DNA from: Bacteroidia bacterium
GTDB taxonomy: Bacteria > Bacteroidota > Bacteroidia > J057 > JANWXU01
Direction of reading: 5' to 3'
Length of the DNA stretch: 35,617 nt
Assembly (NCBI GenBank): GCA_025057395.1
Contig: JANWXU010000031.1
Location: 1-35,617, forward strand
Below are positions 1,382-35,608 of this stretch, in pieces. The notes under the pieces were generated by a model. The model saw nothing but the letters and a program-made list of their open reading frames with translations, was not told the DNA's origin and did not search any database. Each line of letters opens with the position of its first letter. Within the stretch, counting starts at the first letter, position 1. The translations under genes were made by a program, and so were the position numbers.

Positions 1382-2683
1382 ATGATTCGTTACATAAACA
1401 CATTTTGTTTTACTCTTATATGGCTTTATTTTCCTATTCATATTTTAAGAGCCCAAAGGGCTTTTGAAGCCAATGATTCAGTTACTTTAGGTGCAGGGTA
1501 TATAGACGATGTTTACTATTCATTAGAAAAAGGGTTCAAAAAATCCGTAAAGCGAGGAGATTGGGATATTGCTTTTATGGTAAATCCTAGCTCTTCGATT
1601 TTAGTTAATACTGCTGAGCAGCGTATGCTTTATAAGCTTCCTTATGCCGTGAATCAATGGAAGCAGGTAGATACAACCGGGCATATAAGAAACCAAAATC
1701 GTTTAGTTAATAGTTCCAAGAGCTGGTATAATGGAGCCTTTAATAGAACAGCAAGCGGAGCTTCTAACGACATTGGATGGGCAGTATACGATATCTTTAC
1801 CCATAGCCTAAAAGGGGATTCGCTTTATGCCATCTCCTTGCCAGGTAAAGTTTGGAAAAAATTAATGATCGAGGGAAGAGAGCAAGGAATCTATACTTTT
1901 CGTTTTGCTAATTTGGATGGTTCAGAAGAGATGCTACGAAGTGTGAATGTAAGAGAATATCAAAACCAATTATTTATATACTTTTCTATTCTTAGAAATG
2001 AATTTTTACCACCCGACCGTGAGCCACTTCCTAAGGAATGGGACCTATTATTTACTAAATATATGCACGAATATGAAAATGTGCCTATTCAGGAAGAAAC
2101 CAGATTTTATCCTGTCACTGGAGCATTACTGAATCCTTCCTTGCAAGGAGCTAAAGTAATTACAACTACCCCTAAAAATGCCAAATGGCAAGAAGCTAAC
2201 TTCACCCCACAAGCAGATATTGTTGGCTTCGATTGGAAAACTTTTAATAATCAAACTATGCAATGGCAACTAGATTACAATAGAGTATATTTTGTTAAAG
2301 ACCATAATAATAGCGTCTGGCGTCTCTATTTTACTGATTTTACAGGCTCTAGAAGTGGAAAAATTTTATTTTACAAAGATAAAGTAGGAGAAATTACTTC
2401 TAACGACGAAAACCTGGATAAAACAATTACTTACTCCCAACTATATCCTAGCCCTGCCCGAGAACTCACTTACTGGATTTTTGAGAGTCTTTATCCCCTT
2501 AGAGAAGCCGAGCTTGAAATTTATAATTCTAGTGGCCGCAAAATGCAAAGTTATACCTTTTCAGCAATGCCCGGCTTAAATCAACTACCTATAGATACTT
2601 CTAATCTAACAAGTGGTATATATTACGTAGTGCTAAAGAGCGACACTTTTTCCTTATCCCAGAAATTGGTTGTTATAGAATAA
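1382..2683 (+). CDS. HmuY-like protein with T9SS type A sorting domain
   Basis: A secreted 433-residue protein. Residues 1-24 form a signal peptide ending LRA, with no lipobox. The middle resembles the HmuY family: a WDIAF block near residue 61, then WDLLFTKYMHEY, YPVTGALLNP, VGFDWK and a late VWRLYFTDF block. The last 80 or so residues look like a T9SS type A sorting domain (SPARE, AELEIYNSSGRKM, GLNQLPID, SGIYYVVL). HmuY of Porphyromonas gingivalis is a haem-scavenging lipoprotein that works with the TonB receptor HmuR. Here the same fold appears to be exported through T9SS and displayed or released at the cell surface. It aligns with the lipoprotein at 4960-6003, including a His in the WDxxFT+YxH segment. 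It starts an operon, and the receptor begins 10 bp downstream. Haem binding itself is inferred. Confidence 0.8.
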   Translation: MIRYINTFCFTLIWLYFPIHILRAQRAFEANDSVTLGAGYIDDVYYSLEKGFKKSVKRGDWDIAFMVNPSSSILVNTAEQRMLYKLPYAVNQWKQVDTTGHIRNQNRLVNSSKSWYNGAFNRTASGASNDIGWAVYDIFTHSLKGDSLYAISLPGKVWKKLMIEGREQGIYTFRFANLDGSEEMLRSVNVREYQNQLFIYFSILRNEFLPPDREPLPKEWDLLFTKYMHEYENVPIQEETRFYPVTGALLNPSLQGAKVITTTPKNAKWQEANFTPQADIVGFDWKTFNNQTMQWQLDYNRVYFVKDHNNSVWRLYFTDFTGSRSGKILFYKDKVGEITSNDENLDKTITYSQLYPSPARELTYWIFESLYPLREAELEIYNSSGRKMQSYTFSAMPGLNQLPIDTSNLTSGIYYVVLKSDTFSLSQKLVVIE

Positions 2684-2692
2684 GCAGGGACT

Positions 2693-4963
2693 ATGGGAAA
2701 AGGAAGAGTGTTTTTATTTATTCTAGTTTTGGCTGCTTTTGTAATGTTGTGTCCACGCTTAGCGTGGGCACAATACTTAAAAATTGTAGTTAATTCAGAA
2801 TCAGAAAAACTAAAAGAAGTACCCTTGGAAGGCGCCTACATTATATGTTTTTCTCTTGATGAACCACTTATTAATACTTTTCTTTTAACAGATATCAGGG
2901 GAATAGCTAAGTTGCCAAGAAAAGGAAGATGGAAAATTAGAGTAGAATACCTAGGCTTAGAGCCCAAGCTAGATACAACTGACTTTAAAACTCAAGATAC
3001 TCTGCACATTACACTACAGGGAAAGCCTATTCTACTAGGTGATGTAGTTATAACAGGCCAATACCGAATAACAAGTCAAGAACACGCTACTTACAAAGTA
3101 AAGGTTATTAATCAGGAGCGGATTATTCAACAAGGCGCCATAAACTTATCTGATATCTTGGCTAACGAATTAAATATACGACTGAGGCAAGATATGATGT
3201 TAGGCACAAGTTTAACGATACAGGGCTTAAGTGGACAAAATATCAAAATTTTAATAGATGGTGTTCCTCTTATTGGAAGGCTTAACGGAGATATAGACCT
3301 AACCCAGATTAACTTAAATAACATTGAAAAAATTGAAATTATCGAAGGACCCATGTCTGTGATTTATGGCACAGATGCCATGGGCGGTGTTATTAATTTG
3401 ATTACTAAAAAAGGAATTGCACAAAAAATACAGCTAGGCGCTAATGCTTATTACGAATCTATAGGAAAATATAATTTTGACTTTAACCTTCGCTGGCGAC
3501 AAAATGAGCACTTTTGGCAAATAACAGGAGGAAGAAATTTTATACAAGGTTTTACTCCCGGCACTCGTAAAACTACAAGAGCCCACCTGTGGAAACCACG
3601 TGAGCAATACTTTACTACAATAGACTACATATTTCAGAAAAATAAAATCAAACTTCGACCTTTTGGTAATTTCTTCCGAGAAATCTTATTTAATTGCGGT
3701 GAACCAGTAATAACAACTCGCTTTGCAAGAGCCAAAGACGAGCACTTTATTACTCATCGTGTAGGAGCAGGGCTGGAAATTTCTTATCAGCTTCATAAAA
3801 ATTTATCTCTTCACTTACTAAATAATTACAACTGGTTTGAACGTGAGCGCCAAACATGGATAAAAAATTTGGTTACCTTAGAATCGGCCCCTAGCCAAAA
3901 TCCTGGAGATAATGCCATTGACGCTTTTAATGCCTTTTTATTCCGCGGTACTCTAACTTCTACTAGTCTCGAAAAAAAGCTTAACTATCAGCTAGGGTAC
4001 GATATTAATTTAGAAAGCGCAAGAGGATTACGTATAGAAAATACTCTGCAATATATCTATGATTTTGCCATCTTTACCAGTACAGAATACGAGCCTATAA
4101 GAAATTTAATATTACGTCCGGCTCTTCGGGCTGCATATAATACCCAATACGGCGCTCCTATTGTACCTTCCTTCAATATAAAATACAGTTTTGCTCAAAA
4201 TTGGCAGCTAAGAGCTGCCTGGGCACAAGGTTTTCGTGCTCCTAGTCTTAAAGAACTATTTTTTTTCTTTGTAGATGTTAACCATAATATAAGAGGAAAT
4301 AGGCAATTAGAAGCTGAAAAAGGCAATAATTTCAATGCAAGCTTAATTTATCAAAGTCGCTTCCAAAATTGGAACTTACAATTCGAATGGGCCCCTTTTT
4401 ACAACTCTATTACTAACTTAATACAGCTAGCTATTGTAGATCCCTCTACGCAACTCTACCAATACGTCAATATTGCAAAATATACTACTTACGGTAGCAC
4501 TCTTTCCACCAAAATGGAATGGAAAAATTGGAACTGGGAGTTGGGCTTTAATCATACTGCTCGGCTAAACATGCTACATGACCCAAACTCCAATATACCC
4601 CAGTTCTTGGATTCTTATGAGTTTCGTTTTCTTCCTACGTGGCATCAATCTTTCTCTAAATGGCAGCTTTTTGTAAGCTTATTCTATAAGTATAACGGTC
4701 CGATACCAGGATTTACAATTCAAAATGAAAATAACCAAGAAAAAATTATCCAGACTCAAATACAAGGATATCATCTTTGTGATTTTTCGCTCTCTACGCA
4801 ACTCTTCCAAAATAAACTTATTCTTACTACAGGGGTAAAAAATTTATTCAATGTTACCAATATTCAGGCAGGTTTTGCAAGTGGTGCTCACACCGCTGCC
4901 AATAGCCTAATGCCTGTAGCCCAAGGAACTTCTTATTTCATTAGTTTAAAATTAAGCCTATGA
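2693..4963 (+). CDS. TonB-dependent outer-membrane receptor, haem-receptor-like
   Basis: A 756-residue TonB-dependent receptor. Residues 1-26 are a signal peptide (LAWA|Q). A carboxypeptidase-regulatory-like beta domain follows (about 30-115), then a plug domain (about 120-240) with GDVVITGQY near its start and the typical IEIIEGPMSVIYGTDAMGGVIN block. A 22-strand-type barrel follows, ending in an aromatic/hydrophobic strand (YFISLKLSL). A FRAP box at residues 514-517, a following His at 531 and NRQL at 536-539 resemble the FRAP/NPNL region of haem receptors such as HmuR, where a His between the boxes takes part in haem passage. Flanked by two HmuY-like genes, it is probably the translocator for haem or a related ligand. 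Substrate assignment is inference. Confidence 0.87.
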   Translation: MGKGRVFLFILVLAAFVMLCPRLAWAQYLKIVVNSESEKLKEVPLEGAYIICFSLDEPLINTFLLTDIRGIAKLPRKGRWKIRVEYLGLEPKLDTTDFKTQDTLHITLQGKPILLGDVVITGQYRITSQEHATYKVKVINQERIIQQGAINLSDILANELNIRLRQDMMLGTSLTIQGLSGQNIKILIDGVPLIGRLNGDIDLTQINLNNIEKIEIIEGPMSVIYGTDAMGGVINLITKKGIAQKIQLGANAYYESIGKYNFDFNLRWRQNEHFWQITGGRNFIQGFTPGTRKTTRAHLWKPREQYFTTIDYIFQKNKIKLRPFGNFFREILFNCGEPVITTRFARAKDEHFITHRVGAGLEISYQLHKNLSLHLLNNYNWFERERQTWIKNLVTLESAPSQNPGDNAIDAFNAFLFRGTLTSTSLEKKLNYQLGYDINLESARGLRIENTLQYIYDFAIFTSTEYEPIRNLILRPALRAAYNTQYGAPIVPSFNIKYSFAQNWQLRAAWAQGFRAPSLKELFFFFVDVNHNIRGNRQLEAEKGNNFNASLIYQSRFQNWNLQFEWAPFYNSITNLIQLAIVDPSTQLYQYVNIAKYTTYGSTLSTKMEWKNWNWELGFNHTARLNMLHDPNSNIPQFLDSYEFRFLPTWHQSFSKWQLFVSLFYKYNGPIPGFTIQNENNQEKIIQTQIQGYHLCDFSLSTQLFQNKLILTTGVKNLFNVTNIQAGFASGAHTAANSLMPVAQGTSYFISLKLSL

Positions 4964-6003
4964 AATTGAGATATTTACATCATTTTTTTTGCATATTTTT
5001 AGTTCCTATTCTATACCTTACAAGCTGTTTACCAGAAGATAGGCCCTACAAACTATTACCTACTCCCGATGTTCAAGAAGCCCGAGTAGTAATGGGAACA
5101 AATTATGATAAGCGAATTTATTTCGATCTAGAAACTGTAAGCGGTTTTACAGCTCCAACAGATGCGTATGATTTGGCTTTTGAAAATACCCCAGAAGGAA
5201 ATCGCATTTTACTTAACGGAGCTAATTTTATGAAAGCTTTTAATACCCAAGAAATAGAATTTGACAAAGTAAACTTCCAAACTTTACGTCAAACGCCTGA
5301 TTCACTCTTTTGTGCAGACTATCCCAATGGTTTTCCAGACTCACTAGTACTTTCTCCAACATTTTGGCGCTTACCCAAAGAAAAGTTTAATACAGTTTAT
5401 ATCCTTGATAGAGGAAGGCAAAAATTCAAAGACGAAACAGAACGATTTTATAAGTTCCAACTATTAAGTTATGATAAAAATAGATATGTGATAAAATTTG
5501 GCAAACTAACTGAAACCACGCCTACTACTAAAGTTATCTTAAAAGACAAACAAACAGCCTTGCGATATCTAGATTTAAGCACAGCAGAAATTGTTGAACT
5601 AGAGCCTGCTCATAAAAAGTGGGATATTGTTTTTACTCGTTATACTCATGTATATAAAGATCAGCCCTTAAGTTCGGCTATTCGGTACTATTCAGTTACA
5701 GGAGGACTTATTAATAATTTTCAAGGCGTAAAAGCCCAACGTTTATTTCCTAAAAGTCCAGAGTATATTCCTTTTGACTCATTGAATATTGAACATACTT
5801 TAGCTTTGCCCTTAAAAGATGCACTAGATACCATTGGATTCGACTGGAAAGATTATGATTTTGAAAAAGGCTTTATTACCGACCCTAAACGTCTCTATAT
5901 TATCAAAACTGTAGAAGGAAACTACTACAAATTACGTTTCCTAGATTTCTTAGATGAAAAAGGAAACAAAGGCTCTCCTTATTTTGAATTTCAACAATTG
6001 TAA
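4960..6003 (+). CDS. HmuY-like outer-membrane lipoprotein
   Basis: This 347-residue lipoprotein has a signal ending in the lipobox LTSC, so Cys23 should be the lipidated residue. Most of the remainder resembles the HmuY family: WDIVFTRYTHVY, YYSVTGGL, IGFDWKDYD and YYKLRFLDF, in the order seen in its paralogue at 1382-2683. Its ATG overlaps the stop of the TonB receptor gene (ATGA at 4960-4963), which points to translational coupling and a shared job. HmuY proteins take haem from host or environmental haemoproteins and pass it to the receptor. The conserved His in the TRYTH segment is a candidate ligand, but I cannot show that it corresponds to either known HmuY haem ligand. Confidence 0.83.
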   Translation: MKLRYLHHFFCIFLVPILYLTSCLPEDRPYKLLPTPDVQEARVVMGTNYDKRIYFDLETVSGFTAPTDAYDLAFENTPEGNRILLNGANFMKAFNTQEIEFDKVNFQTLRQTPDSLFCADYPNGFPDSLVLSPTFWRLPKEKFNTVYILDRGRQKFKDETERFYKFQLLSYDKNRYVIKFGKLTETTPTTKVILKDKQTALRYLDLSTAEIVELEPAHKKWDIVFTRYTHVYKDQPLSSAIRYYSVTGGLINNFQGVKAQRLFPKSPEYIPFDSLNIEHTLALPLKDALDTIGFDWKDYDFEKGFITDPKRLYIIKTVEGNYYKLRFLDFLDEKGNKGSPYFEFQQL

Positions 6004-6030: not shown

Positions 6031-8994
6031 ATGAAGATAAGCAACTCTTTTATTATTCTTATAATAGCAAGCATATTATCTATTTCAAATAATAAAATTG
6101 CAATAGGCCAGGAAGAAAAAATACTACTTACTAACATTCGACAATTAATTTATGAAGGCAAAAGATCAGGAGAGGGATATTTTTCTCCAGATGGCAAAAA
6201 AATGATATTTCAGAGTGAAAGAGAACCTAATAACCCTTTTTATCAAATTTATATTCTTGACTTAGAAACTGGAGAAACCCATAGGGTCTCTCCAGGTAAG
6301 GGAAAAACTACTTGTGCATTTTTTCGTCCTAATAGTCAAGAAGTTTTATTTTCTTCAACCCACCTTGATCCTTTAACAGAAAAGTTGCAAGCTGAGGAGC
6401 TCGCTTTTCGGGCAAGTGGTCAAAAAAGAAGATATGCTTGGGACTACGATACAAGCATGGACATTTTTTCAGCTTATCAAGATGGTAGTAATCTTAGGCG
6501 GCTAACCACAGCAAAAGGGTATGATGCAGAAGCTGCTTACTCACCTGATGGCAAAAAAATAGTTTTTTCTTCTTTGCGTTCTGCATATGAAAAGGAACTT
6601 ACCCCCGAAGAGAAAAAAATGCTCGAAATAGATCCTGCTTACTTTGGAGAAGTATACATTATGGATGCTGATGGAAAAAATCAAAAACGTTTGACCTACT
6701 GGCCAGGTTATGATGGAGGTACTTTTTTTTCTCCTGATGGGCAACGAATCATTTGGCGTCATTTCGACCCTACAGGTAAAACCGCAGATATATATACAAT
6801 GAAGTTAGACGGCTCTGATATTAGAAGAATTACAGATTTCAATGCTCTTTCGTGGGCACCTTACTACCATCCTAGTGGCAAATATATCATTTTTTCAAGT
6901 AATAAATTAGGTTTTAGCAATTTTGAACTTTTTATTGTTGATGCTGAAGGTAGAAAAGAACCCGTAAGGGTTACTTATACTGAAGGATTTGATGGATTAC
7001 CTGTTTTTAGTCCTGATGGTAAAAAGTTGAGTTGGACAAGTGCTCGTACCGCTAATGGAGCGGCTCAAATTTTTTGGGCAGATTGGAACCATGAAAAGGC
7101 GCTAGCCCTACTAGAAGCCGCTCCCCCTAGAACAACTCATACTATTACCCAATCTAAAGTAACCATCCAAACTATAACTGATCAAAATTTAACTTCAGCA
7201 TCATCCACTGCTTTGGAAAATAGACTAAAAGCGCATATACAATTTCTAGCCTCAGATGCTTTAGAGGGAAGAATGACAGGCACAGCTGGAGCCGCCCAAG
7301 CAGCTGAGTACTTGACCAAACAATTAATTGAACTAGGATTTGAACCATATACCCAAAGCTACAAAATACCCTTCGAATTTTTAGCTGATTTGCAAATTCC
7401 TGAAACAGGAAACTATTTACAGCTTCTCTTAGAAAAGGGCAAAAAAGCTACACCCTTACCTTTTATTATAAAAAAAGAATTTTTCCCCTATGCTTTTTCA
7501 GATACAACTAGTTTTAGTGGACCTTTAGTTTTTGTAGGCTATGGTATTAAAACTCCGCCCTTAGCTAAGTTGCAGTATAATTCTTATGCTAGCTTTATGC
7601 CTAGCAAACTCAGAGACCATGTACATATTTTGATAGATGGATTACCACAAGGCTTAACAATGGAGCAGAAGGAGGAGCTTTTACCCTACTCTTCTACTAT
7701 AAAAAAGATTCAATTGGCTAAAGAAAATGGTGCTAAAGCCGTAATTGTACTAAGTTTAAAAGAATCTTTTGAAAACAAAAAGTACCGTTCTCGTAGTGAT
7801 GATTTTGCTGCTGTTAATTGCGGCATACCTGCTATACGAATTTCTTTACCTGCTTATAAAAAATTAGTAGCTACAGCAGGGTGGGATAGTATTAATATTA
7901 GTACTTTGAGGCAATCTTCTCTTGCTCAGGCAGATAGTATTTTTCGTACGCACTTCCAAAAATATGAGCCCATTAGGATAAGTGGCAAGGTCCAATTAAC
8001 TCCTATTAAGAAAATAGATTACAACATAGTGGGAGTACTAAAACCTGCTTCTTATTCAGACTCTACAAAATTTCTAGTACTAGGAGCTCATTACGATCAT
8101 TTGGGTAGGGGCGAAGTAGCTTCTTTAGCAGACGAAAAAGAAGCTCACGATATCCATAACGGTGCAGACGATAATGCTTCAGGGGTAGCAGCAGTACTAG
8201 AAATAGCAAGAAATTTATCTACTTTATACAAAAGTCATAAAGCTCAAATAAAGCACGGAGTAATGGTGGGCTTTTGGGCAGGAGAAGAACTAGGTTTGCT
8301 AGGCTCGAACTACTTTGTAAATCACACTTTCCAACCTGCCAAAAAAGCCCTGGCAAACTTTAATTTTGACATGGTAGGACGTCTAAAAGACAACAAACTA
8401 ACAATACAAGGTACCGGTTCCTCTAGTATATGGAATAAGCTATTAGAAAAACATAATATTAAAGCAGGCTTTGATCTAGTACTTTCAGCTGATCCTTATG
8501 TTCCTACTGATGCAACATCTTTTTACACTGCTGGTTCTCCTATTCTCAGTTTTTTTACAGGCATCCATCAAGAATATCACAAGCCTAATGACGATGAAAA
8601 TTTAATTAACTACCAAGGCTTAGCAAAAATCGTTACTTTTTCTTCTCAACTATGTGAGGAAATTCTTAAGCAAAATATTACTCCTGATTATATCAAGGTA
8701 GTTAGTACTGAAAAGCAGCGGAAAGGGGCCGCTACAATATACTTAGGAACAATTCCAGATTACGCCAGTTCAGAAAAAGGAATGAAACTAAGCGGCGTAA
8801 AAGAAGGGGGGCCTGCTGCTAAAGCCGGATTACAAGGTGGAGATATTATTATCAAGCTAGCAGGAAAAGAAATCAATAATATATACGACTATATGTATGT
8901 TCTTGATCTGCTCACTCCTAATCAACCAGTAGAGATAGTAGTACTGCGCAGTGGAAAGGAAATTAAACTAAACGTTATTCCTACAACGAAATAA
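6031..8994 (+). CDS. Secreted M28 metallopeptidase with PD40 propeller and PDZ domain
   Basis: A 987-residue exported protein with a signal peptide (cleavage after IAIG, about residue 26). Residues 40-360 hold PD40/TolB-like propeller repeats, each with a SPDGKK-type motif (for example FSPDGKKMIFQS, YSPDGKKIVFSS, FSPDGQRIIWR). Residues 400-880 are an M28 aminopeptidase interrupted by a PA-like insert. The di-zinc site is visible as His687 (GAHYDH), Asp714 (GADDNASG), Glu752-Glu753 (GEE), Asp780 (NFDMVG) and His850 (EYHKP). Residues 895-985 form a PDZ domain (GGPAAKAGLQGGD). It lies 27 bp after the HmuY lipoprotein, probably in the same operon, so it might degrade haemoproteins or other proteins outside the cell to feed uptake (inference). 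The 26-27 residue spacing from His687 to the Asp is longer than in short M28 enzymes. Confidence 0.88.
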   Translation: MKISNSFIILIIASILSISNNKIAIGQEEKILLTNIRQLIYEGKRSGEGYFSPDGKKMIFQSEREPNNPFYQIYILDLETGETHRVSPGKGKTTCAFFRPNSQEVLFSSTHLDPLTEKLQAEELAFRASGQKRRYAWDYDTSMDIFSAYQDGSNLRRLTTAKGYDAEAAYSPDGKKIVFSSLRSAYEKELTPEEKKMLEIDPAYFGEVYIMDADGKNQKRLTYWPGYDGGTFFSPDGQRIIWRHFDPTGKTADIYTMKLDGSDIRRITDFNALSWAPYYHPSGKYIIFSSNKLGFSNFELFIVDAEGRKEPVRVTYTEGFDGLPVFSPDGKKLSWTSARTANGAAQIFWADWNHEKALALLEAAPPRTTHTITQSKVTIQTITDQNLTSASSTALENRLKAHIQFLASDALEGRMTGTAGAAQAAEYLTKQLIELGFEPYTQSYKIPFEFLADLQIPETGNYLQLLLEKGKKATPLPFIIKKEFFPYAFSDTTSFSGPLVFVGYGIKTPPLAKLQYNSYASFMPSKLRDHVHILIDGLPQGLTMEQKEELLPYSSTIKKIQLAKENGAKAVIVLSLKESFENKKYRSRSDDFAAVNCGIPAIRISLPAYKKLVATAGWDSINISTLRQSSLAQADSIFRTHFQKYEPIRISGKVQLTPIKKIDYNIVGVLKPASYSDSTKFLVLGAHYDHLGRGEVASLADEKEAHDIHNGADDNASGVAAVLEIARNLSTLYKSHKAQIKHGVMVGFWAGEELGLLGSNYFVNHTFQPAKKALANFNFDMVGRLKDNKLTIQGTGSSSIWNKLLEKHNIKAGFDLVLSADPYVPTDATSFYTAGSPILSFFTGIHQEYHKPNDDENLINYQGLAKIVTFSSQLCEEILKQNITPDYIKVVSTEKQRKGAATIYLGTIPDYASSEKGMKLSGVKEGGPAAKAGLQGGDIIIKLAGKEINNIYDYMYVLDLLTPNQPVEIVVLRSGKEIKLNVIPTTK

Positions 8995-9096: not shown

Positions 9097-11337
9097 ATGA
9101 AGAAAATTTTATTTCTTTCATTTATATTATTACTAAAAAACTTGAATTGCTGGGCTCAAGCTTCTACTATAAGTACGGATACTATTTGGATAATACCAGA
9201 GGTGGCTATTGTTGGAAGAAAAGAAAAATCATTACCTGGCTCCGCACAAATAATTACTAAAGAGAAATTATCTTACCTTAACCAACCAGATATTAACAAA
9301 GTTCTAAGAACGGTACCAGGAGTAAATATTCGAGATGAAGAAGGATGGGGACTACGGCCGAATATCGGTTTACGAGGCACTCCTGTAAATCGCAGTGCTA
9401 AAATTACTCTGATGGAAGACGGCATTTTAATAGCTCCAGCCCCCTATTCTGACCCTGCAGCTTACTATTTTCCATCACTATCTAGAATGGAGGCAGTAGA
9501 AGTACTTAAGGGAAGCAGCCAAATTAAATATGGCCCTTATACTATTGGAGGAGCCATTAATTTGATTTCCACATCGTTTCCTACAAATTTTAAGGGCTTT
9601 GGGTTATTTTCTTATGGAAGTTTTGGCACTAATCAGCAAAGAATTTGGATAGGAGATACCAAGGAAAATATCGACTATGTCTTTGAACTAAATCGTTGGG
9701 CAAGTAATGGCTTTAAGCAGCTAGATGGTGGGGGCAATACAGGCTTTGATAGAAGAGACTTTATGGCCAAACTACGCATACACTCCCAAAAAGAAACCAA
9801 GGTTTTTCAATCTCTAGCTTTGAAATTTCTCAATTCCACCGAAGAAGCTAATGAATCTTATTTAGGACTTACTTATGCAGATTTCAAAGCCAATCCTAAT
9901 CGTCGCTATGCAGCTACGCAAAAGGATTTATTAGATATGAAACACTACCATACCTCCTTAAACCATACAATTATTCCTTTTAAAAACTTTTCTTTAAGTA
10001 CAACAGGATATTTTGCCAAAACCTTTCGAGAATGGGCAAGAGTAAATAGCATTAAAGGTCTAAGCTTAAATACAATCCTAGCTAACTCCACATCTAATGA
10101 CAGTGCTTATCAGATTATGACAGGTCAAATGAATGGAAGTCTTACCTATCAAAGTGCAGCTCGAAGTTATACTGTACGAGGTATTCAACTTCAAGCTCAG
10201 TACGAATTACAAACAAGTGCTATTAGACATCAATGGCAAGTGGGTATGCGCTACCATGAGGATTTTGCGGACCGATGGGCAACTCAGTCTATGTATACTA
10301 TGACCAACGGCAAAATGACTCTTACAAATGCTGGTATAAAAGGAAATCAAGAAAATCAAATTCGAAGTGCAAAAAGCTGGGCTACTTTCTTTCAATATAG
10401 CCTCCACTATAAAAATTTAACAATTACACCAGGCATTCGATGGGAAAAAATAGATTTAAGATTAAAAAATTATGGTAATACAGATAATGCCCGAATAGGT
10501 ACTTTTTTAAAAGAAGCTACCAATGCGCTAGCAGTAGTATTACCGGGCGTGGGTATTAACTATACTATTAATTCACAAATGAGCATTTTTGGTGGCTTAC
10601 ATAAAGGTTTTTCTCCGCCGGGGACACCCTCCTTAAATACTGAAAAACAAGCAAAAGTGGAAACAGCACTAAATTATGAATTAGGATACCGATATTTTCA
10701 TGAAGTAGTTATTGCCCAGTTTTGCTTATTTCTAAGTAATTATGATAATATTCTGGGTTCCGACCAAATTTCTGCAGGAGGCATGGGAACAGGAAATATG
10801 TTTAATGCAGGAAAAGCCAAAGCACAAGGCATAGAAATAAATATAGAATATGATATTATTCAAAGTATCTACAAAAAGTCAATAGTTAAGTTACCCATAA
10901 GTTTGATATATACCTATACAGATGCATATTTTCAACAAGCCTTTCGTAGTATGGGCGGAGATTGGGGTACACAAATTATTCAAAAAAATGATAAAATCCC
11001 TTTTATTACTCCCCATCAATTAACCCTAGTTACTAGCTTGCAAACAACCCAATTTAATGTAACCTTAGTGAGTCGCTTTATAGGAGAAACACGTACTACC
11101 CCTGGACAAAATGTAACTATCACTCCTAGAAATAACGTCAAATATACCGACGTAAATGCAATAGCAAGCTACTGGGTAGTTGATTTAAGTGCAAATTATA
11201 AATTTTATAGACATTTTACTATTTTCATGCTTATTAATAATTTGTTTAATGCTACTTATATCGTAGCTAATTTGCCACAGGGTTATCGACCGGGCATTCC
11301 CTTCGCTTTCAACCTAGGAGCTAAATTTGAGTTCTAG
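9097..11337 (+). CDS. FecA-like TonB-dependent receptor
   Basis: A 746-residue outer-membrane receptor with a signal peptide cleaved after residue 20 (CWA|Q). There is no N-terminal STN signalling domain and no carboxypeptidase-like domain, and the plug starts almost at once (about residues 30-150). The plug carries a FecA-type signature: RPNIGLRG, ITLMEDGI, then APAPYSDPAAYYFP, followed by VEVLKGSSQIKYGP and GGAINL. The barrel ends in Phe (LGAKFEF), as expected for BAM insertion. FecA-group receptors import ferric citrate, but in Bacteroidota this group is broad, so the substrate is open. It follows the haem operon after a 102-bp gap and may be co-transcribed or separately controlled. Without the STN domain it should not signal to an anti-sigma factor as E. 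coli FecA does. Confidence 0.86.
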   Translation: MKKILFLSFILLLKNLNCWAQASTISTDTIWIIPEVAIVGRKEKSLPGSAQIITKEKLSYLNQPDINKVLRTVPGVNIRDEEGWGLRPNIGLRGTPVNRSAKITLMEDGILIAPAPYSDPAAYYFPSLSRMEAVEVLKGSSQIKYGPYTIGGAINLISTSFPTNFKGFGLFSYGSFGTNQQRIWIGDTKENIDYVFELNRWASNGFKQLDGGGNTGFDRRDFMAKLRIHSQKETKVFQSLALKFLNSTEEANESYLGLTYADFKANPNRRYAATQKDLLDMKHYHTSLNHTIIPFKNFSLSTTGYFAKTFREWARVNSIKGLSLNTILANSTSNDSAYQIMTGQMNGSLTYQSAARSYTVRGIQLQAQYELQTSAIRHQWQVGMRYHEDFADRWATQSMYTMTNGKMTLTNAGIKGNQENQIRSAKSWATFFQYSLHYKNLTITPGIRWEKIDLRLKNYGNTDNARIGTFLKEATNALAVVLPGVGINYTINSQMSIFGGLHKGFSPPGTPSLNTEKQAKVETALNYELGYRYFHEVVIAQFCLFLSNYDNILGSDQISAGGMGTGNMFNAGKAKAQGIEINIEYDIIQSIYKKSIVKLPISLIYTYTDAYFQQAFRSMGGDWGTQIIQKNDKIPFITPHQLTLVTSLQTTQFNVTLVSRFIGETRTTPGQNVTITPRNNVKYTDVNAIASYWVVDLSANYKFYRHFTIFMLINNLFNATYIVANLPQGYRPGIPFAFNLGAKFEF

Positions 11338-27379: not shown

Positions 27380-30300
27380 ATGAGGAAATGTTTATTTAGT
27401 TTAGCGCTATTGCTTACATCATTTTGGGCAGTAGCTCGTGAAAATCCCCAAGCCCAACGGTGGCTAGAGCGTAGAGGGGTTTATTTTACAGAAAATAAAG
27501 GTCAAATATTTGACACGGAAGGTAAGCCACGCCCTGATATCCTTTTTACTACTGATATTAATGGCACAAGGCTCTATTTCCGTAACAATGCTATTAGCTA
27601 TGTTTTTCCCCAGATTGCAAGTGTAAAAGGGCAAGAAGTACTCACACAGCTCTACCGTATGGACTTGGAGTTGTTGAATGCTAACCCCCATGCAGAGGTG
27701 ATAAGCGAAGATATGACCAACGAAATTTCTAACTTTTACTTAGCACATCTTCCCAACGGTATAGAAGGGGTCAAATCCTATCGTAAGATTACTTATAAAA
27801 ATATCTATAATAAAATAGATTTAGTATTCTATGGTGCTAATGGAAGCGGCGCAATTAAGTATGATTTTATCATTCACCCCGGGGGAAAAGTGTCAGATAT
27901 TAAACTAAAGTATAACGCTGCAACTACGCTAAAAAAAGCAAAAGACGGTTCCCTGCAAATAGGTAATCCGTTAGGTACTATCTCTGAAAATACTCCCTAC
28001 TCCTATACCCTAGATAAAGATCATAACGTTAATTCTATCCACTCAGAATACGTTATTAACGGCGATGTAGTTACATTTAAGGTAGATAACTATGATAACA
28101 ATCAGACTCTTATCATAGACCCTCTCGCCCGTACTTGGGCTACTTATTATGGTGCTAATAGCCTAGATAGGGCATATGGGGTAGCAATTGGACCTAACGG
28201 GAACATAGCCGTAGTAGGTTATACTCAAAACACAGGCTTCCCCGTTTCACCAGGCGCTTTTCAGGGCACTTTTAGCGGAGTGAATGATGCATTTGCTATA
28301 CTATTCGATCCTAGTGGTAACCGAATCTGGTCTACATTTTACGGAGGTACTTCAATTGACCAAGCTAATAGTGTGGTTATAGATGCTAATAATAATGTTT
28401 ATTTCACAGGTTATTCTAGCAGTACTGATTTTAGTGTTACGCAAGGAAGCGGGCAAGCAGGGGGGGGAGACGTTTTTGTAGTACGCCTTTCGAGTACAGG
28501 AGCTCGTAATTGGGCACTTCTCCTGGGCGGTAATTCTAACGATCAGGGGAATAGTATCGCACTCGATCGTGGTGGTAACGTATTGGTAGCAGGTACTACA
28601 TTTAGCCCTAATTTTCCGGTAAATAATGCTTTTCAGCAAACTTTTGGAGGAATCCGCGATGCTTTTGTAGTTAAAATGGCGGCAACTAATGGAACCACAC
28701 TCTGGTCCACTTATCTAGGTGGTGCTAATGACGACCAAGCTTTTGGTGTAGATGCAGATGCAAATAATAATGTGGTTGTAGCAGGTCTTACTTCTAGTAA
28801 CAATTTTCCTGCTACTTCAGGTACCTATACAGGAGGTAATGATGTGTTTGTAGCTAGTTTAAATGCAAATGGTCAAAGAAATTGGGCTATATATTGGGGG
28901 GGAACACAAAATGAACAAGCGAATGCCGTAGCGGTAGACGCAGCTAACAATATTATTATTACGGGACAAACCAATTCTACAAGTGGGATTGCAACGCCGG
29001 GCGCTATTCAATCAACATTTGGGGGAGGAGCTCGTGATATTTTCGTAGCAAAACTCAATAATAGTGGTACACCCCAATGGGCCACCTACTATGGGGGCAG
29101 TGCAGATGATGAGGGTTTAAGCATAGCTGCTGATGCCGGAAACAATATCTATATAACAGGTATTACCAATAGTGCTAACTTTCGAACGCAAGCCGCTTTG
29201 CAGTCTACTTCAGCAGGAAATAATGAAGCCTTTATTCTAGAACTAGGAAGTACAGGCTCTCTTCGTTTAGCATCATATTACGGCGGCAGTCAGAATGAAG
29301 TAGGTAGGGGGATTGCAGTAAGGGGCAACACAGTAGTAGTAGTAGGGCAGACAAGCTCAATCAATTTTCCAGTTCAAAATCCTTATCAACAATTCCGCGG
29401 GGGTAATGATGATGCTTTCATTTTAGCATTGCAAAGTGATGCAACCCCAGCTTGCAATATTGTAGTTGATGGAATACCTACTAACGAGCGGTGTGACGCA
29501 CCAAGAACAGGTGCTATTAACATAACAGTAAGTGGAGGTACACCACCTTATCGCTACCAATGGTCAGGACCGGGAGGTTTCACCAGCACACAGGCAAATA
29601 TTTCTGGTTTAGGAGCTGGTGTATATAGCCTTACTGTTACGGATAATGCTAATCCTCCATGCCAAGCAACTGTAAACTTTAGTGTATTGCCAGCCACCAA
29701 CCTAGTTATTACTCCAACCGTTCTGAATGAACAAAGAGCTATAAATATTACAGTGACAGGAGGGAGTGGTAACTATACCTACGCTTGGAGAGGACCAGGA
29801 GGTTTCTCTGCTACTACCCAGAATGTTTCTAATTTAACCACGCCAGGAACTTATACGGTTACGGTAACGGAAGTGGGAACAGGGTGTAGTGCGAGTGCTT
29901 TCCCTGTATTTACAGGAGCTCTTACAGGATGCCCTATCTTTAGAGCTGTTAAAACTGATATAGCCTGCTTTGGCTTAACAGACGGAAAAATGGAGGTTGT
30001 AACTGAAGCAGTGCCTGTAGGAGACGTTGTAGAATACTCCATCGATAATGGTCGTACTTGGGTATCAAATAATATTTTCTTAGGTCTAGCTAAAGGAAAT
30101 TATACTATCCGGGCTAGGGTTAGAAACAAGCCGCAGTGTGACTTTGCACAAAATTTTACTATCGTTGAGCCCGAGTTAATGCAAGTAACGGGTTCGTTTG
30201 CTACAAATGTTTCTTGTACGGGAGGGTCTGATGGTTCTATTCAACTTCAAGTCAGAGGTGGAACGCCAGACCAAAATGGCAATTATCGTTACTTCTTAGT

Positions 30301-33300
30301 AAGTGGAAGCCAAGAAACTCCTACTACTAATCCGGTTCGTAATCTTCGGCCTGGTACTTATGTAGTAAGAGTAGTAGATGTAAACAACTGCAGTGCTGAA
30401 ACACGCTCGGTTGTAATCTCTGAGCCAGCAGCTCCACTTTCTGCTAATATTCTTTCCCAATCGAATGTATCTTGCTTTGGGGCATCAAATGGTAGTTTTA
30501 ATGTTTTAGCAGCGGGCGGCACTCCACCATATGTATACATATTACGTCCACAAGGCGGCACGCCTTTTCCGCCACAAGCAAGTGGTAGTTTTAATAACTT
30601 ACCAGCTGGGAATCACACAGTAACCATCCGTGATGCAAATAATTGTACGCTAGATATTCCAGCAAGAATTACACAACCAGCAGAATTGAGAGTAAACGTG
30701 CTATTTACGCGAGATGCAACATGTTTCAACTCTGCAGATGGTTCTATTACTGTAGGTGCTACGGGTGGTGTAGCTCCTTATCGTTACTCAATAAATGGAG
30801 GAGAATTTCGCCCAGCTGTAACTTTCTCAGGACTGGCACGTGGTGAATATATAATACGCGTACGAGATGCTAATGGTTGTGAAGCCTCCACCGGAGCTGT
30901 ATCGATATTTGCATCCCCACAAATAACAATTACTAACTCCTCAGTTACTACTGTAGACTGCTTTGGTAACCGCACTGGGGGAGTAAGTATTACAGTAGCG
31001 GGTGGTATTCCGCCCTATACTTACCGTTGGTCGAATGGTGCTACCACACCTAATGTAACAGGTTTACCTGCCGGTAATGTAAGTGTTACCATTACGGATG
31101 CTTTAGGCTGTAGCCTTACCCAATCTTTTGATGTTCCTACTAATACCAATTTAGTAGTAAGAGAAACAATAAACCAACCTAGCTGCAACGGTGGCAGCGA
31201 TGGCTCTATTGTTATTAACGTAACTGGAGGCGAGCCTCCCTATTCTTATACCTGGTCCACGGGAGCAAATACCAAGGATCTGTTGGGTATTAGGGCAGGT
31301 AGGTATACTGTTACTGTGATTGACCGGCTAGGGTGTGCACTAAACGAAAGCTATAACGTAGCCGAGCCTACACGTATTGATTTAGGAATTCCAATGGTGA
31401 CTAACGTCTCTTGCAATGGCGGTAATGATGGTCGCATCGCACTAATGGTAAGTGGTGGTACTCCACCTTATGGGTATGCATGGTCTAATGGAGGAACCAA
31501 TTCATTTATAGAAAACTTAACAGCAGGCAATTATACGGTTAATGTAAATGATGCTAATGGATGTACAGTTCCGGCTCGGACCATTACCGTATCCCAACCA
31601 GATCCGCTAGTAGCTTCCCTAGCACCGGGAGGTGATCTATCGTGCTTTGAGTCCTTTGATGGTAGAATTACCGTATTGAATACTGCAGGTGGTACTCCCC
31701 CTTATAGTTACTCCATTTCGCTTAATGGCCAAGTAGTGGGTACTAATAGTACGGGTATATTCAGTGGTTTAGCCGCAGGCACTTATGTAGTAACAGTTCG
31801 TGATGTTAATAACTGTAGTTTTACTACGACCAAAATCCTAACCCAACCTAACCAGATCATTGGTACGGTAACCTTTAAAGCAAATATTGCCTGTTTTGGC
31901 TTGACAGATGGAAAGATTTATGTGAGTGCTTCAGGAGGCACGGGATCACCACTAGGCTTCCTATACTCCTTAAATAATCCACTAGGTCCCTTTACTACTA
32001 CTAATACCTTCGACGGTCTAAGTAAGGGAGTCCAAACCGTATATATCCGAGATTTGGGTAATAATTGCGTAGCAGCTATTAGAGAAGAAATTTTTGAACC
32101 CACTAAGTTGCGCATTGTAAGTGCCGAAGTAAGCAACATCAGCTGCGAAGGCTTCCCCACTGCTACTATCACCGTGAGAGCTGAAGGGGGTACCACGTTG
32201 AATGCTTCGAATGAGTTTGTGCCTTATCAATACAAGATAAACGATAGGCCTTTTGGATTATCAAATGTGTTCACCAATCTAGCACCAGGAAATTACACGG
32301 TTGTAGTACGTGACCATAACCTTTGTACTGATACTGTTAGAGTAAGAGTGGATGCTGGCTTAAATGCAAGGCTTACAGTTACGCCTACTTCGTGCTTTGG
32401 GGGAAGAGACGGATCAATTGTGGTAGAAGCATTTGGTGGGAGGCCTCCCTACACCTACTCGTTGGATGGAAGTCCATTTACCGCCAACAATCGATTCACG
32501 AGCTTAGCTGCTGGTACGTATCAAGTTCGTGCCATGGATTCAAGGGGCTGTATGTTTGTCCAAAATCAAATAGTAGGTTCACGTCCTTCTATTCAACCTA
32601 CAATTATAGCTTCTCATCCTGAGCGCTGTGAAGGACAACTAATTACCCTTACTGCAACCACCAATTTAGTACCAGGATCCCCTCTTCGCTATCAGTGGTT
32701 AGATAGTAATCGTAATCCTATTCCAGGTGCCACTTCTAGCAATTACGTAACAGGAGTAAGCGGAATATTCTTTGTGAGCATAACCGATGTTTCTAGTGGC
32801 TGTACTGAAACGTCTCCTGGTGTAGTAGCACGTATAAATCCAGATCCTAGGCCAGTAATTTCCACGCTTATACCTAACGCTCCAATTCGTTTTTGCAAAG
32901 GGAATAAGGTAGAGTTAATTGCTAATACTGCACAAGTGCCCGATCCTATTTACAATTGGTTCAGAGATGGTATATTCGTACAAGGGGGTATCGATCGAAT
33001 TTATACTGCTTTTGAAACGGGGGTTTATACGGTAAGGGTTATAACAGGACATGGCTGTGTAAATGAATCTCCAGCTTTCCAAGTAATTGTTGATCCTAAC
33101 CCTGAGGCTAATATCTACCAACCAAGTAAGAATATCATTTGCCCAGGAGAAACAATCCGCCTACAATCGAGTAGAGATATCAACTGGTCCTACCAATGGA
33201 GTAGAAATGGTGCACCCATTAGCAATACCAACGATTTCGTATTTAATGCTACGCAACCAGGTTCTTATACTGTAACTATTACTAACCGCCTTACGGGTTG

Positions 33301-35608
33301 TCGCGCAACTTCGCCAGCAGTAGTACTAAATGAAAATCCTCTATCCTTTACTACACGCGTAGTAGAACCTACGGGCTGTGGTCAAAATACAGGACTAATT
33401 GAAGTAACTGCTTCTGGTAATGTAGGGCAAACTTTTTATTCTGTAAATGGATCACAGCAAGTACCCTTTAATGGTAGCTTCAGCATAGGTAATTTAGTAA
33501 GCGGCCCCTATAGAATAGATGTTTCGGATGCTCAGTGTACTGTATCTCGAACAATTACTTTGCAAGTAGCAGCTCCACGTATTGTCTCGAGATTGGATAT
33601 TGCTAGTAATCGTATAGATATATCTTGGACGCCGATACCAGGAGCACGTTATGACATTGAATATAGGGTTGTGGGTGCCGAAACTTGGACTACTATAAGA
33701 AATTTGGCTAACAATATAGCTGCTTTTAGTGGTGCACCTATACCTTCGGTTCGCATAACCGGTCTTCAACATCAAACGCGCTATGAATTTAGGGTGCGAG
33801 CTGTTTGCAGCAGTGGAGCCACTTCTGAATGGTCGCCCATTGAAAGAGCTACTACACCTACCCAAACTACTGGAACTTGCTTTATGCCAGCCAATATATA
33901 CGTCAATCGTGTACCTAACGATCCAGAAGCAGTACTCGTTTATTGGACAGTACCTTTTGGTGGTGAACTTCGTCCTGTATGCTACGACTTAGAATATCGT
34001 GTTAAGGGTACCGATAACTGGTTTGCTTTAAGAATAGGCTCTAATGAAATACCTTATCGTTTGCGTCCTCTTCTTACAAGCACTACCTATGAATTACGCA
34101 TGCGCACTAATTGCGTCTCGTGTCCAGGTTTTGATGAAACGCGTCGTTCTACTTATTCACCTGTTATCGAATTCGAAACCACTAACCTTTGTCCAGAAGC
34201 TAATTCATTAACGCTAAATGGAGGTTCAGCTACGGAAACAGTATGTGGTGGCTTAGAATTGAAGGTAGATAATTTAGCAGATAATGAAAATATTCGATAC
34301 AAGTGGCTATATTCTAGCGATGGTCTAGAATATCAGGAAGCTGCGGGTAATAACACAGCGCGTACTTATAAGGCGTCTATTACAGGGTTCTATGTTGCAG
34401 TAGTTACTATTGGTAATTGCGAGCCAGTTACTACAGCTCCTATCAACGTAAGGGTTAACGCAATACCCGGCGTTATAGCTGAGGTTGTTTCAAATGTATC
34501 TTGCTACAAGGGTACTAATGGTTCTCTAAGGGCAGGTTGCACTGGAGAGGCATGTGTAGATGCTCAAGGTCGTGCGGACTATCAGTTTTCGTTAGATCGT
34601 GTTAACTGGCAGGATAATGGCCTTTTTGAAAATTTAGCAGCTGGCTTATATACCGTTTATGTGCGCAAAGTATCTACTGGTTGCCAAAGTTCCTTCAGCC
34701 ATCCAGTGTATACCAATATTACTCAACCAGGACTCCCAGAGTTTGAAGTTGAATGGCCGGGAGGAAGTAACATAGACGTACGTTGGGCTCAAGTAAGTGG
34801 TGCCTCAGGTTATCGAATTGCTTATCGGATTCTTGGCTCAGGTGATAATGACTGGAATTATATATCAGTTGACCAGCCATTCATTCCTTCTCCGGAGCCA
34901 ATAATTATAAATCGCCGTATAACGAATTTGCAACGCAATGGTACTATTTATGAAGTCCGTTTGCAAACTCGTTGCGCTGCTACTAATGCATTAGGTGAAT
35001 GGACTACTTCCAAAACTGTCATAGTAGACGCACAAGATCCTTTCCTAGGCTGTGTAACTCCGGGGGGTGTGTTTATTAATAATATCTCCCAAACTTCTGC
35101 TCGAATTAATTGGCAACCCACTGCACAGGCTATCTCTTACATTGTAGAATACCGTGAAATTGGAGAAAGCCAGTTTACGAGAATCAACAATGTACAGGGT
35201 ACCTCTTATACACTTACAGGGCTTGTAAGTGGTGGTCAGTATTTCGCACGGGTAATTGCACGGTGTTCTAATTTAGCTAGTGATATTTCGCTACCTTCAG
35301 TAACATTGTTATTTGCTACTTCACTAGCTAAGGAGGCTACTGCTGCTAATAGCTTAGTTACTGATCTTTTAGTATACCCCAACCCCAATAACGGTATTTT
35401 TAATATTAGCCTTAATGCGGTCGAAAGCTCAAATGCAACGGTAACTTTAACCGATCTTTCGGGAAGAGTTATACTTGAAAAAGTATTCGAAGTACATGCA
35501 GGTAATAATCAATTACCTCTAGAGCTTCAGGGTTATACTCCAGGCGTCTATTTATTGCAGTTCAAGCAAGGAAGTGAGCGTCATGTGGTGAAGGTTATTT
35601 TGAACTAA
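27380..35608 (+). CDS. Giant T9SS surface protein with SBBP propeller, SprB repeats, Ig-like and FN3 domains
   Basis: A 2742-residue exported protein with the stop inside the window. Residues 1-19 are a signal peptide (AVA|RE). Residues about 30-245 match the DUF7948-type N-terminal domain (FTENKGQIFD to LIIDPLARTW). Residues 253-690 hold seven SBBP-type blades, each opening with a W-x-x-Y/L-x-G motif such as WATYYGG and containing GNIxVVGxT. Residues 692-1737 hold 13 SprB-like repeats (SCFGG-DGSI, GGTPPYTYSW, AGxYTVTVTDxNGC). Three Ig-like domains follow to about 1990, then further SprB-like, FN3 and Ig-like modules. A T9SS type A sorting domain closes the protein from about 2662 (VYPNPNNGIF, TLTDLSGRVI, TPGVYLLQF). 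SprB of Flavobacterium johnsoniae is the moving adhesin of gliding cells. This protein is built of similar repeats and is likely a surface adhesin, but gliding is inference. Confidence 0.9.
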   Translation: MRKCLFSLALLLTSFWAVARENPQAQRWLERRGVYFTENKGQIFDTEGKPRPDILFTTDINGTRLYFRNNAISYVFPQIASVKGQEVLTQLYRMDLELLNANPHAEVISEDMTNEISNFYLAHLPNGIEGVKSYRKITYKNIYNKIDLVFYGANGSGAIKYDFIIHPGGKVSDIKLKYNAATTLKKAKDGSLQIGNPLGTISENTPYSYTLDKDHNVNSIHSEYVINGDVVTFKVDNYDNNQTLIIDPLARTWATYYGANSLDRAYGVAIGPNGNIAVVGYTQNTGFPVSPGAFQGTFSGVNDAFAILFDPSGNRIWSTFYGGTSIDQANSVVIDANNNVYFTGYSSSTDFSVTQGSGQAGGGDVFVVRLSSTGARNWALLLGGNSNDQGNSIALDRGGNVLVAGTTFSPNFPVNNAFQQTFGGIRDAFVVKMAATNGTTLWSTYLGGANDDQAFGVDADANNNVVVAGLTSSNNFPATSGTYTGGNDVFVASLNANGQRNWAIYWGGTQNEQANAVAVDAANNIIITGQTNSTSGIATPGAIQSTFGGGARDIFVAKLNNSGTPQWATYYGGSADDEGLSIAADAGNNIYITGITNSANFRTQAALQSTSAGNNEAFILELGSTGSLRLASYYGGSQNEVGRGIAVRGNTVVVVGQTSSINFPVQNPYQQFRGGNDDAFILALQSDATPACNIVVDGIPTNERCDAPRTGAINITVSGGTPPYRYQWSGPGGFTSTQANISGLGAGVYSLTVTDNANPPCQATVNFSVLPATNLVITPTVLNEQRAINITVTGGSGNYTYAWRGPGGFSATTQNVSNLTTPGTYTVTVTEVGTGCSASAFPVFTGALTGCPIFRAVKTDIACFGLTDGKMEVVTEAVPVGDVVEYSIDNGRTWVSNNIFLGLAKGNYTIRARVRNKPQCDFAQNFTIVEPELMQVTGSFATNVSCTGGSDGSIQLQVRGGTPDQNGNYRYFLVSGSQETPTTNPVRNLRPGTYVVRVVDVNNCSAETRSVVISEPAAPLSANILSQSNVSCFGASNGSFNVLAAGGTPPYVYILRPQGGTPFPPQASGSFNNLPAGNHTVTIRDANNCTLDIPARITQPAELRVNVLFTRDATCFNSADGSITVGATGGVAPYRYSINGGEFRPAVTFSGLARGEYIIRVRDANGCEASTGAVSIFASPQITITNSSVTTVDCFGNRTGGVSITVAGGIPPYTYRWSNGATTPNVTGLPAGNVSVTITDALGCSLTQSFDVPTNTNLVVRETINQPSCNGGSDGSIVINVTGGEPPYSYTWSTGANTKDLLGIRAGRYTVTVIDRLGCALNESYNVAEPTRIDLGIPMVTNVSCNGGNDGRIALMVSGGTPPYGYAWSNGGTNSFIENLTAGNYTVNVNDANGCTVPARTITVSQPDPLVASLAPGGDLSCFESFDGRITVLNTAGGTPPYSYSISLNGQVVGTNSTGIFSGLAAGTYVVTVRDVNNCSFTTTKILTQPNQIIGTVTFKANIACFGLTDGKIYVSASGGTGSPLGFLYSLNNPLGPFTTTNTFDGLSKGVQTVYIRDLGNNCVAAIREEIFEPTKLRIVSAEVSNISCEGFPTATITVRAEGGTTLNASNEFVPYQYKINDRPFGLSNVFTNLAPGNYTVVVRDHNLCTDTVRVRVDAGLNARLTVTPTSCFGGRDGSIVVEAFGGRPPYTYSLDGSPFTANNRFTSLAAGTYQVRAMDSRGCMFVQNQIVGSRPSIQPTIIASHPERCEGQLITLTATTNLVPGSPLRYQWLDSNRNPIPGATSSNYVTGVSGIFFVSITDVSSGCTETSPGVVARINPDPRPVISTLIPNAPIRFCKGNKVELIANTAQVPDPIYNWFRDGIFVQGGIDRIYTAFETGVYTVRVITGHGCVNESPAFQVIVDPNPEANIYQPSKNIICPGETIRLQSSRDINWSYQWSRNGAPISNTNDFVFNATQPGSYTVTITNRLTGCRATSPAVVLNENPLSFTTRVVEPTGCGQNTGLIEVTASGNVGQTFYSVNGSQQVPFNGSFSIGNLVSGPYRIDVSDAQCTVSRTITLQVAAPRIVSRLDIASNRIDISWTPIPGARYDIEYRVVGAETWTTIRNLANNIAAFSGAPIPSVRITGLQHQTRYEFRVRAVCSSGATSEWSPIERATTPTQTTGTCFMPANIYVNRVPNDPEAVLVYWTVPFGGELRPVCYDLEYRVKGTDNWFALRIGSNEIPYRLRPLLTSTTYELRMRTNCVSCPGFDETRRSTYSPVIEFETTNLCPEANSLTLNGGSATETVCGGLELKVDNLADNENIRYKWLYSSDGLEYQEAAGNNTARTYKASITGFYVAVVTIGNCEPVTTAPINVRVNAIPGVIAEVVSNVSCYKGTNGSLRAGCTGEACVDAQGRADYQFSLDRVNWQDNGLFENLAAGLYTVYVRKVSTGCQSSFSHPVYTNITQPGLPEFEVEWPGGSNIDVRWAQVSGASGYRIAYRILGSGDNDWNYISVDQPFIPSPEPIIINRRITNLQRNGTIYEVRLQTRCAATNALGEWTTSKTVIVDAQDPFLGCVTPGGVFINNISQTSARINWQPTAQAISYIVEYREIGESQFTRINNVQGTSYTLTGLVSGGQYFARVIARCSNLASDISLPSVTLLFATSLAKEATAANSLVTDLLVYPNPNNGIFNISLNAVESSNATVTLTDLSGRVILEKVFEVHAGNNQLPLELQGYTPGVYLLQFKQGSERHVVKVILN
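28136..29452 (+). repeat. Seven SBBP repeats (beta-propeller)
   Basis: Within the giant protein, seven units of 55-65 residues begin WATYYG, WSTFYG, WALLLG, WSTYLG, WAIYWG, WATYYG and LASYYG. Seven units would close one propeller. They are diverged at the DNA level and are not recent duplications. Confidence 0.75.
29453..32590 (+). repeat. Array of about 13 SprB-like repeats
   Basis: Tandem units of about 75-85 residues, each with the paired Cys of the SprB repeat (xSCFG near the start and NGC near the end) and a GGTPPYxYxW core. The first two units lack the first Cys motif and are degenerate. Units 3 and 11 share IACFGLTDGK. DNA identity between units is low by eye. Confidence 0.8.

Follow-up and report, generated by a model that had tools for sequence, protein, structure and literature searches.

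Haem capture in the Bacteroidota is known mostly from gut, oral and animal-pathogenic species, in which it involves one HmuY protein or one unrelated secreted haemophore. In the HmuY-HmuR system (hmuYRSTUV) of Porphyromonas gingivalis and Bacteroides, a lipoprotein of the HmuY fold is encoded beside a TonB haem receptor carrying FRAP and NxxL motifs and a histidine, a pattern reported to be conserved in haem and haemoglobin receptors (PMC9331221). Known HmuY proteins are described as having ligand pairs of the His-His, His-Met or Met-Met type, and some as having none (PMC12106395), and the released HmuY of P. gingivalis is described as a proteolysis product of the anchored form (PMC11967795). 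The HfpR-HfpY system of Flavobacterium psychrophilum likewise has one HmuY-like protein, a haem-binding member of the family that is reported to be co-transcribed with its receptor, with a DoxX-family gene in between, and to be repressed by iron (PMC9331221).

Secreted partners have also been described. In Riemerella anatipestifer, the RhuH-RhuR-RhuA system combines a secreted haemophore, a TonB receptor and an outer-membrane HmuY-like protein under Fur and iron control: RhuH is reported to be secreted and to extract haem from haemoglobin, which RhuA cannot do, while RhuR imports the haem, and the authors suggest that RhuH hands haem to RhuA or RhuR (PMC11967795). RhuA (B739_1417) has elsewhere been termed HmuY-like (PMC5429918). 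Flavobacterium columnare is reported to secrete through the type IX system (T9SS) a HmuY protein, C6N29_01035, that combines PF14064 and Por_Secre_tail in one polypeptide (PMC9618737). According to two further reports, HmuY of Prevotella intermedia is encoded next to a T9SS-sorted protein, both being strongly induced by iron limitation, and in Porphyromonas endodontalis a gene for a T9SS protein lies inside the hmu operon (PMC10434189, PMC11208336). A T9SS-secreted HmuY on its own, and a HmuY beside a T9SS protein in oral species, are thus already on record.

Here we analyse a locus in a Bacteroidia bacterium (contig JANWXU010000031.1 of assembly GCA_025057395.1); the whole stretch of 35,617 nucleotides is called the window below. 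Positions 1382-6003 hold a T9SS-sorted HmuY-fold protein (HYT), a TonB-dependent receptor and a lipidated HmuY-fold protein (HYL). The locus shares with HmuY-HmuR a HmuY-fold lipoprotein beside a receptor with the FRAP/His/NxxL pattern; different from that system, which has a single HmuY of about 180 structured residues, it encodes two paralogues of about 310 residues with two repeats each, and HmuS-T-U-V are absent beside the window genes, the receptor being followed by HYL, then by an M28 peptidase and another receptor. Whereas P. gingivalis releases HmuY by proteolysis, HYT is a separate T9SS-sorted paralogue. The Rhu system is alike in pairing a secreted with an outer-membrane partner, but the fold of RhuH (PDB 8XJC) is reported to differ from that of HmuY, the protein occurs in vesicles and its gene is transcribed divergently, T9SS going unmentioned in its description (PMC11967795); 8XJC is absent among the structure matches listed for HYT, which may nevertheless be homologous to RhuH. 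By description only, C6N29_01035 differs in being reported singly, with no lipidated paralogue or receptor operon described in that account, and the T9SS proteins of P. intermedia and P. endodontalis, also set against HYT by description only, are not described there as HmuY-like. A literature search, which covered mostly open papers and is weak evidence, turned up no account of a single receptor with a T9SS HmuY on one side and a lipidated HmuY on the other. The sequence-only reading took a single lipoprotein to be the normal form of HmuY, a premise that has to be qualified, since a T9SS-tailed HmuY is reported from F. columnare (PMC9618737) and two or three HmuY genes from several species (PMC12106395).

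Organisation of the locus and its proteins

HYT (1382-2683, forward strand, 433 aa) was recognised by its ORF call, Pfam and NCBIfam matches, models and alignments; the haem-type receptor (2693-4963, forward, 756 aa) by family matches and its motifs; and HYL (4960-6003, forward, 347 aa) by Pfam, models and a lipobox. By their ORF coordinates, HYT and the receptor are 9 bp apart and the receptor and HYL overlap by 4 bp, and the three genes are packed as an operon. A haem-type receptor between two HmuY-like proteins, one T9SS-sorted and one lipidated, is what the sequence-only reading had proposed, and ORFs, families, folds and sorting signals agree on it. A PD40-M28-PDZ peptidase gene (6031-8994, forward) starts 27 bp 3' of HYL and is possibly co-transcribed with the trio; it lies outside the conserved cassette, not being found at the equivalent position in the listed homologous loci. 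Also outside the cassette is a second TonB-dependent receptor (9097-11337, forward), FecA/siderophore-like by its family matches. An AraC-family regulator (237-1241, reverse; PF12833, 69.9 bits) is divergent from the operon, and an AraC-type gene also adjoins the cassette in loci L035/L107, L037 and L057. The right end of the window (27380-35608) is taken up by a 2742-aa ORF.

HYT scores 25.3 bits against the Pfam HmuY family (PF14064), just below the cut-off of 27, and so we call it HmuY-like and do not file it as a family member. Despite that score, its AlphaFold model (mean pLDDT 91.5, built on an alignment of the window with the scan loci described below) settles the predicted fold as that of HmuY: residues 31-339 match PinO with Z 12.8 over 130 residues at 3.0 A (VIA-align). 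The C-terminus is a type A sorting domain (PF18962, Por_Secre_tail, 39.4 bits, cut-off 27; TIGR04183 in NCBIfam, 36.1 bits, cut-off 23), and in the model the tail, residues 350-432, matches a T9SS tail structure with Z 11.1 (VIA-align). Such a tail is present in 78 of the 80 HYT ORFs of the scan loci, the other two being truncated by contig ends, and the window's genome encodes the T9SS component SprA (2147.8 bits, cut-off 200).

HYL is well within the Pfam HmuY family (66.1 bits, cut-off 27), and its AlphaFold model, built in the same way (mean pLDDT 92.7), matches PinO with Z 15.6 and haem-bound HmuY with Z 15.3, over 137 residues at 2.6 A in each case (VIA-align); the best ten Foldseek matches of the model are all HmuY-family chains. 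Modelling on HmuY structures, which had been put forward as a check, thus gives a match for both proteins (best Z 12.8 and 15.6). The predicted lipidation site of the window copy is LTSC, with C23, and the aligned cysteine is kept in all 60 rows of an alignment of 59 of the 63 HYL references plus the window. Counting this cysteine as +1, lysine stands at +3 in 47/60 and position +5 is acidic in 60/60, so that most copies come close to C-x-K-(D/E)-(D/E), near the reported surface-lipoprotein export signal C-X-K-(D/E)2-X (PMC5080379); the window copy reads CLPED, with P replacing K. Judged by this signal, HYL is probably a surface-exposed lipoprotein.

Conservation of the trio

A genome scan seeded on a subset of HYT gave 114 stretches and 87 relatives, of which 80 loci were kept; as the seed was the closer HYT subset, these loci lean towards motif-bearing HYT proteins, and the window copy is without that motif. 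HYT, receptor and HYL lie on the same strand within 10 kb in 67 of the 80, in the order HYT-receptor-HYL in 58, likewise with a split ORF in 2, and as receptor-HYL-HYT in 7. Ten of the 13 incomplete loci end at a contig edge, and three (L126, L128 and L132) have sequence but miss a member. Of 65 receptor-HYL pairs that were measured, 62 either overlap or leave a gap of at most 30 bp. In a second sample, 395 genomes drawn from the class, with HYT defined by more than about 150 bits and HYT-type rows removed from the HYL matches, there were at least 143 HYT matches in at least 136 genomes; among the matches listed, a HYL lies on the same strand no more than 12 kb from HYT in 129 of 143 cases, with HYT first in 125 of these, and 14 HYT genes are unlinked to HYL, a figure uncorrected for contig ends. 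The two sets are not fully independent because some genomes are common to both (e.g. L054 and G047). Counting operons with this gene order, another check proposed at the outset, finds the arrangement widely repeated.

The Pfam HmuY family PF14064 was found in 19 of 60 relatives, and a search of viral contigs gave no confirmed match to the window HYT. A further gene of the HYT type is present in the window's genome (G000:C183; L137:1127-2437), in which TTR replaces TH and the conserved histidine is absent; it is 3' of an ORF that by eye resembles a TolC-type efflux protein, and no HYL is among the nearby matches listed. Seven loci (L091, L094, L098, L101, L102, L103 and L106) have a larger second TonB receptor (about 830-860 aa), convergent and directly after HYL.

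Origin of the pair and candidate ligands

The window proteins are 30% identical across 125 aa (E 1e-16), and a profile-profile comparison extends the match to 278 columns (E 2.4e-47). The two halves of HYT are alike, as are the two halves of HYL (profile E about 1e-7 within either protein), but corresponding halves match far better across the two proteins (1.7e-22 and 1.6e-34), which argues that a two-repeat ancestor probably predates the split between HYT and HYL. In a tree of 50 rows, built from 24 randomly picked loci plus the window, the 25 HYT and the 25 HYL sequences each form one clade with support 100/100, and so the two are old paralogues that have travelled together. That the two copies reflect redundant drift after a recent duplication, as the two-repeat fold common to both might suggest, is rejected: it is contradicted by the two deep, fully supported clades and by opposite sorting signals kept throughout, and we find it scarcely credible.

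The sequence-only reading drew attention to a WDxxFT+YxH segment shared by the two proteins and to its histidine. The histidine is indeed present in both window proteins (H229 and H230), but it is not conserved in relatives, being kept in 1/68 HYT and 34/60 HYL, and the importance given to it does not survive: we reject it as a general haem ligand, a role that such poor conservation makes unlikely. WDxxF is a fold motif, found in solved HmuY sequences too. In HYT, an alignment of 67 of the 76 references plus the window (68 rows) leaves one near-invariant histidine as the candidate ligand, H141, present in 65/68; by the repeat alignment, its hairpin may lie near the equivalent of the HmuY His166 hairpin. 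In HYL the candidate is M91 (52/60), H230 being kept in 34/60, and there is no invariant His or Met pair, a counterpoint to haem binding by this protein.

These ligands bear on two other explanations. HYT might be something other than a haemophore, either a protein on the cell surface to which haem proteins bind or a structural partner, and serve to bring haem proteins to the receptor complex: T9SS cargo can be surface-anchored according to one account (PMC10202324), and HYT has only the single near-invariant histidine and the Pfam score below the cut-off, while its HmuY fold over residues 31-339 and the near-invariance of H141 itself count against this role, which we regard as quite improbable. 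Alternatively, HYT and HYL may bind haem in different settings, e.g. oxidised or protein-bound as against free haem, and each deliver directly to the receptor. Their candidate ligands do differ, with H141 near-invariant in HYT and M91 in most HYL, and His and Met ligands are reported to give different redox preferences in known HmuY proteins (PMC12106395); none of the present results points to contact between HYT and HYL. Constant pairing and gene order suggest dependence, yet they fit parallel as well as serial action, and we treat parallel capture as a serious though somewhat doubtful alternative.

The receptor and its cargo

The receptor carries FRAP at residues 514-517, H531, and N536/L539. 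In an alignment restricted to ORFs of at least 640 aa (70 plus the window), the histidine between FRAP and NxxL is invariant (71/71). Its score against TonB-hemin (TIGR01785), 134.3 bits, is far below the cut-off of 316.85 and is still its best NCBIfam match; we suggest that it may work like a TonB-hemin receptor even though it falls short of membership in that family. It also matches TonB-B12 (98.9 bits).

Related operons contain further haem genes. In locus L032, a substrate-binding protein, a FecCD permease, a haem ABC ATPase (268 bits, NCBIfam cut-off 261) and HemS/ChuX are encoded between HYT and the receptor; in L034, genes of these kinds are found 3' of HYL (haem ABC ATPase, 281 bits). 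In L034:3929-9640, HYT is divergent from receptor-HYL, followed by the haem transporter, a layout that resembles Riemerella rhuH versus rhuR-rhuA. Among the 80 loci, the binding protein and permease occur in 9, HemS in 10 and a CbiX-type gene in 16, and no locus combines CbiX with either HemS or the permease set. The CbiX-type gene, seen as a lipobox-bearing chelatase in the operon at L054:11293-12824 and in 15 more loci, is often followed by one for a protein of roughly 190 aa, matching PepSY_TM_like_2 in L054. By comparison with the HmuS de-chelatase (PMC12583661), the CbiX-type lipoprotein is a candidate for an iron-removal step outside the cytoplasm.

Haem as the cargo has good support from the invariant histidine, the best-matching family, the haem genes of related operons and the enriched Fur-box-like sites described below, and haem uptake is very probably what the operon does. 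The cargo could instead be a siderophore or a tetrapyrrole other than haem (cobalamin, protoporphyrin): the family matches of the receptor include TonB-B12, some HmuY homologues are reported to hold porphyrin without iron coordination (PMC12106395), and a CbiX-type lipoprotein occurs in 16/80 loci. Set against this are the invariant receptor histidine, TonB-hemin as the best family, the haem ABC ATPase and HemS of related clusters, and an Rfam scan of the window that gave no cobalamin riboswitch and no other match; family scores, riboswitch-free window and histidine weaken vitamin B12 in particular, and we hold any such cargo to be very unlikely.

Regulation

A perfect 9-bp inverted repeat, TTATTTAGA-N11-TCTAAATAA (1338-1366), lies 15 bp upstream of HYT and is a candidate Fur-type operator. 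It is modest evidence alone, as 76 of 2000 random sequences with the same composition also contained a perfect 9-bp repeat, and the Fur-type assignment is tentative because the spacer is 11 bp and not the usual 5. Taking the consensus from R. anatipestifer (reported Fur box ATTTAGAATTATTCTAAAT; PMC5609570), Fur-box-like palindromes with at most two mismatches were found upstream of HYT in 24 of 80 regions including the window, 21 of them with a 5-bp spacer, against a mean of 3.8 over 50 first-order randomisations, the highest of which reached 9. The half-sites ATTTAGA/TCTAAAT are over-represented in front of HYT homologues, in most cases separated by 5 bp. Fur is encoded in the window's genome, and the operon is probably iron-regulated.

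Other repeats occur in the same region. Between the AraC gene and HYT is an imperfect inverted repeat, GTTACGCA...TGCGTAAT (1303-1325), possibly an AraC-type operator. A second palindrome, about AATACC-N7-GGTATT, precedes HYT in roughly 20/80 loci (e.g. L071, L074 and L056), and CAATACC occurs in 23/80 HYT upstream regions against 1.9 expected; the window is without the full palindrome.

A possible haem relay

We consider it likely that the locus is a haem-acquisition operon, probably under iron control, in which two haemophore-like proteins serve one receptor, and we lean moderately towards the two acting on the same cargo at different distances. Haem binding by both proteins, their placement at the surface and the order of transfer are what we infer in outlining such a route. 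HYT would be exported across the outer membrane through the T9SS and then, released or on the outermost surface, would capture haem; HYL, at the mouth of the receptor, would accept haem supplied by HYT or by the medium and present it to the TonB receptor, which would import it. A relay from secreted to anchored protein to receptor, as proposed in the sequence-only reading, is plausible, and RhuH-RhuR-RhuA is a functional precedent for its logic, although the secreted partner there is unlike HmuY. An obligate hand-off from HYT to HYL is a possibility that we hold only tentatively. Against the haem-acquisition reading in general stands the F. columnare mutant without its T9SS-tailed HmuY, which is reported to have grown normally in the media examined (PMC9618737).

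A broader form of the relay, in which a widespread and obligate pair of double-repeat HmuY-like proteins, one T9SS-exported and one surface-lipidated, has co-evolved as a fixed unit around one haem receptor and passes haem inward, with alternative iron-recovery modules encoded in the same operons, either cytoplasmic (haem ABC transporter and HemS) or extracytoplasmic (CbiX-type chelatase lipoprotein and PepSY-like membrane protein), seems to us rather unlikely. The window's genome encodes a HemS protein, and its assembly, about 96% complete, gave no FecCD permease match and no CbiX match, which counts against the haem-acquisition reading at the step that follows the outer membrane.

Conclusions

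The paired system occurs in roughly one in three of the genomes sampled from the class (at least 136 of 395 with HYT, among the matches listed) and in many uncultured lineages. As many relatives of this bacterium retain the three genes side by side, a two-step haem relay is worth testing. A secreted and an anchored HmuY working as a pair would show how a scarce cofactor is gathered over long range, and would offer a clean test of serial haemophores.
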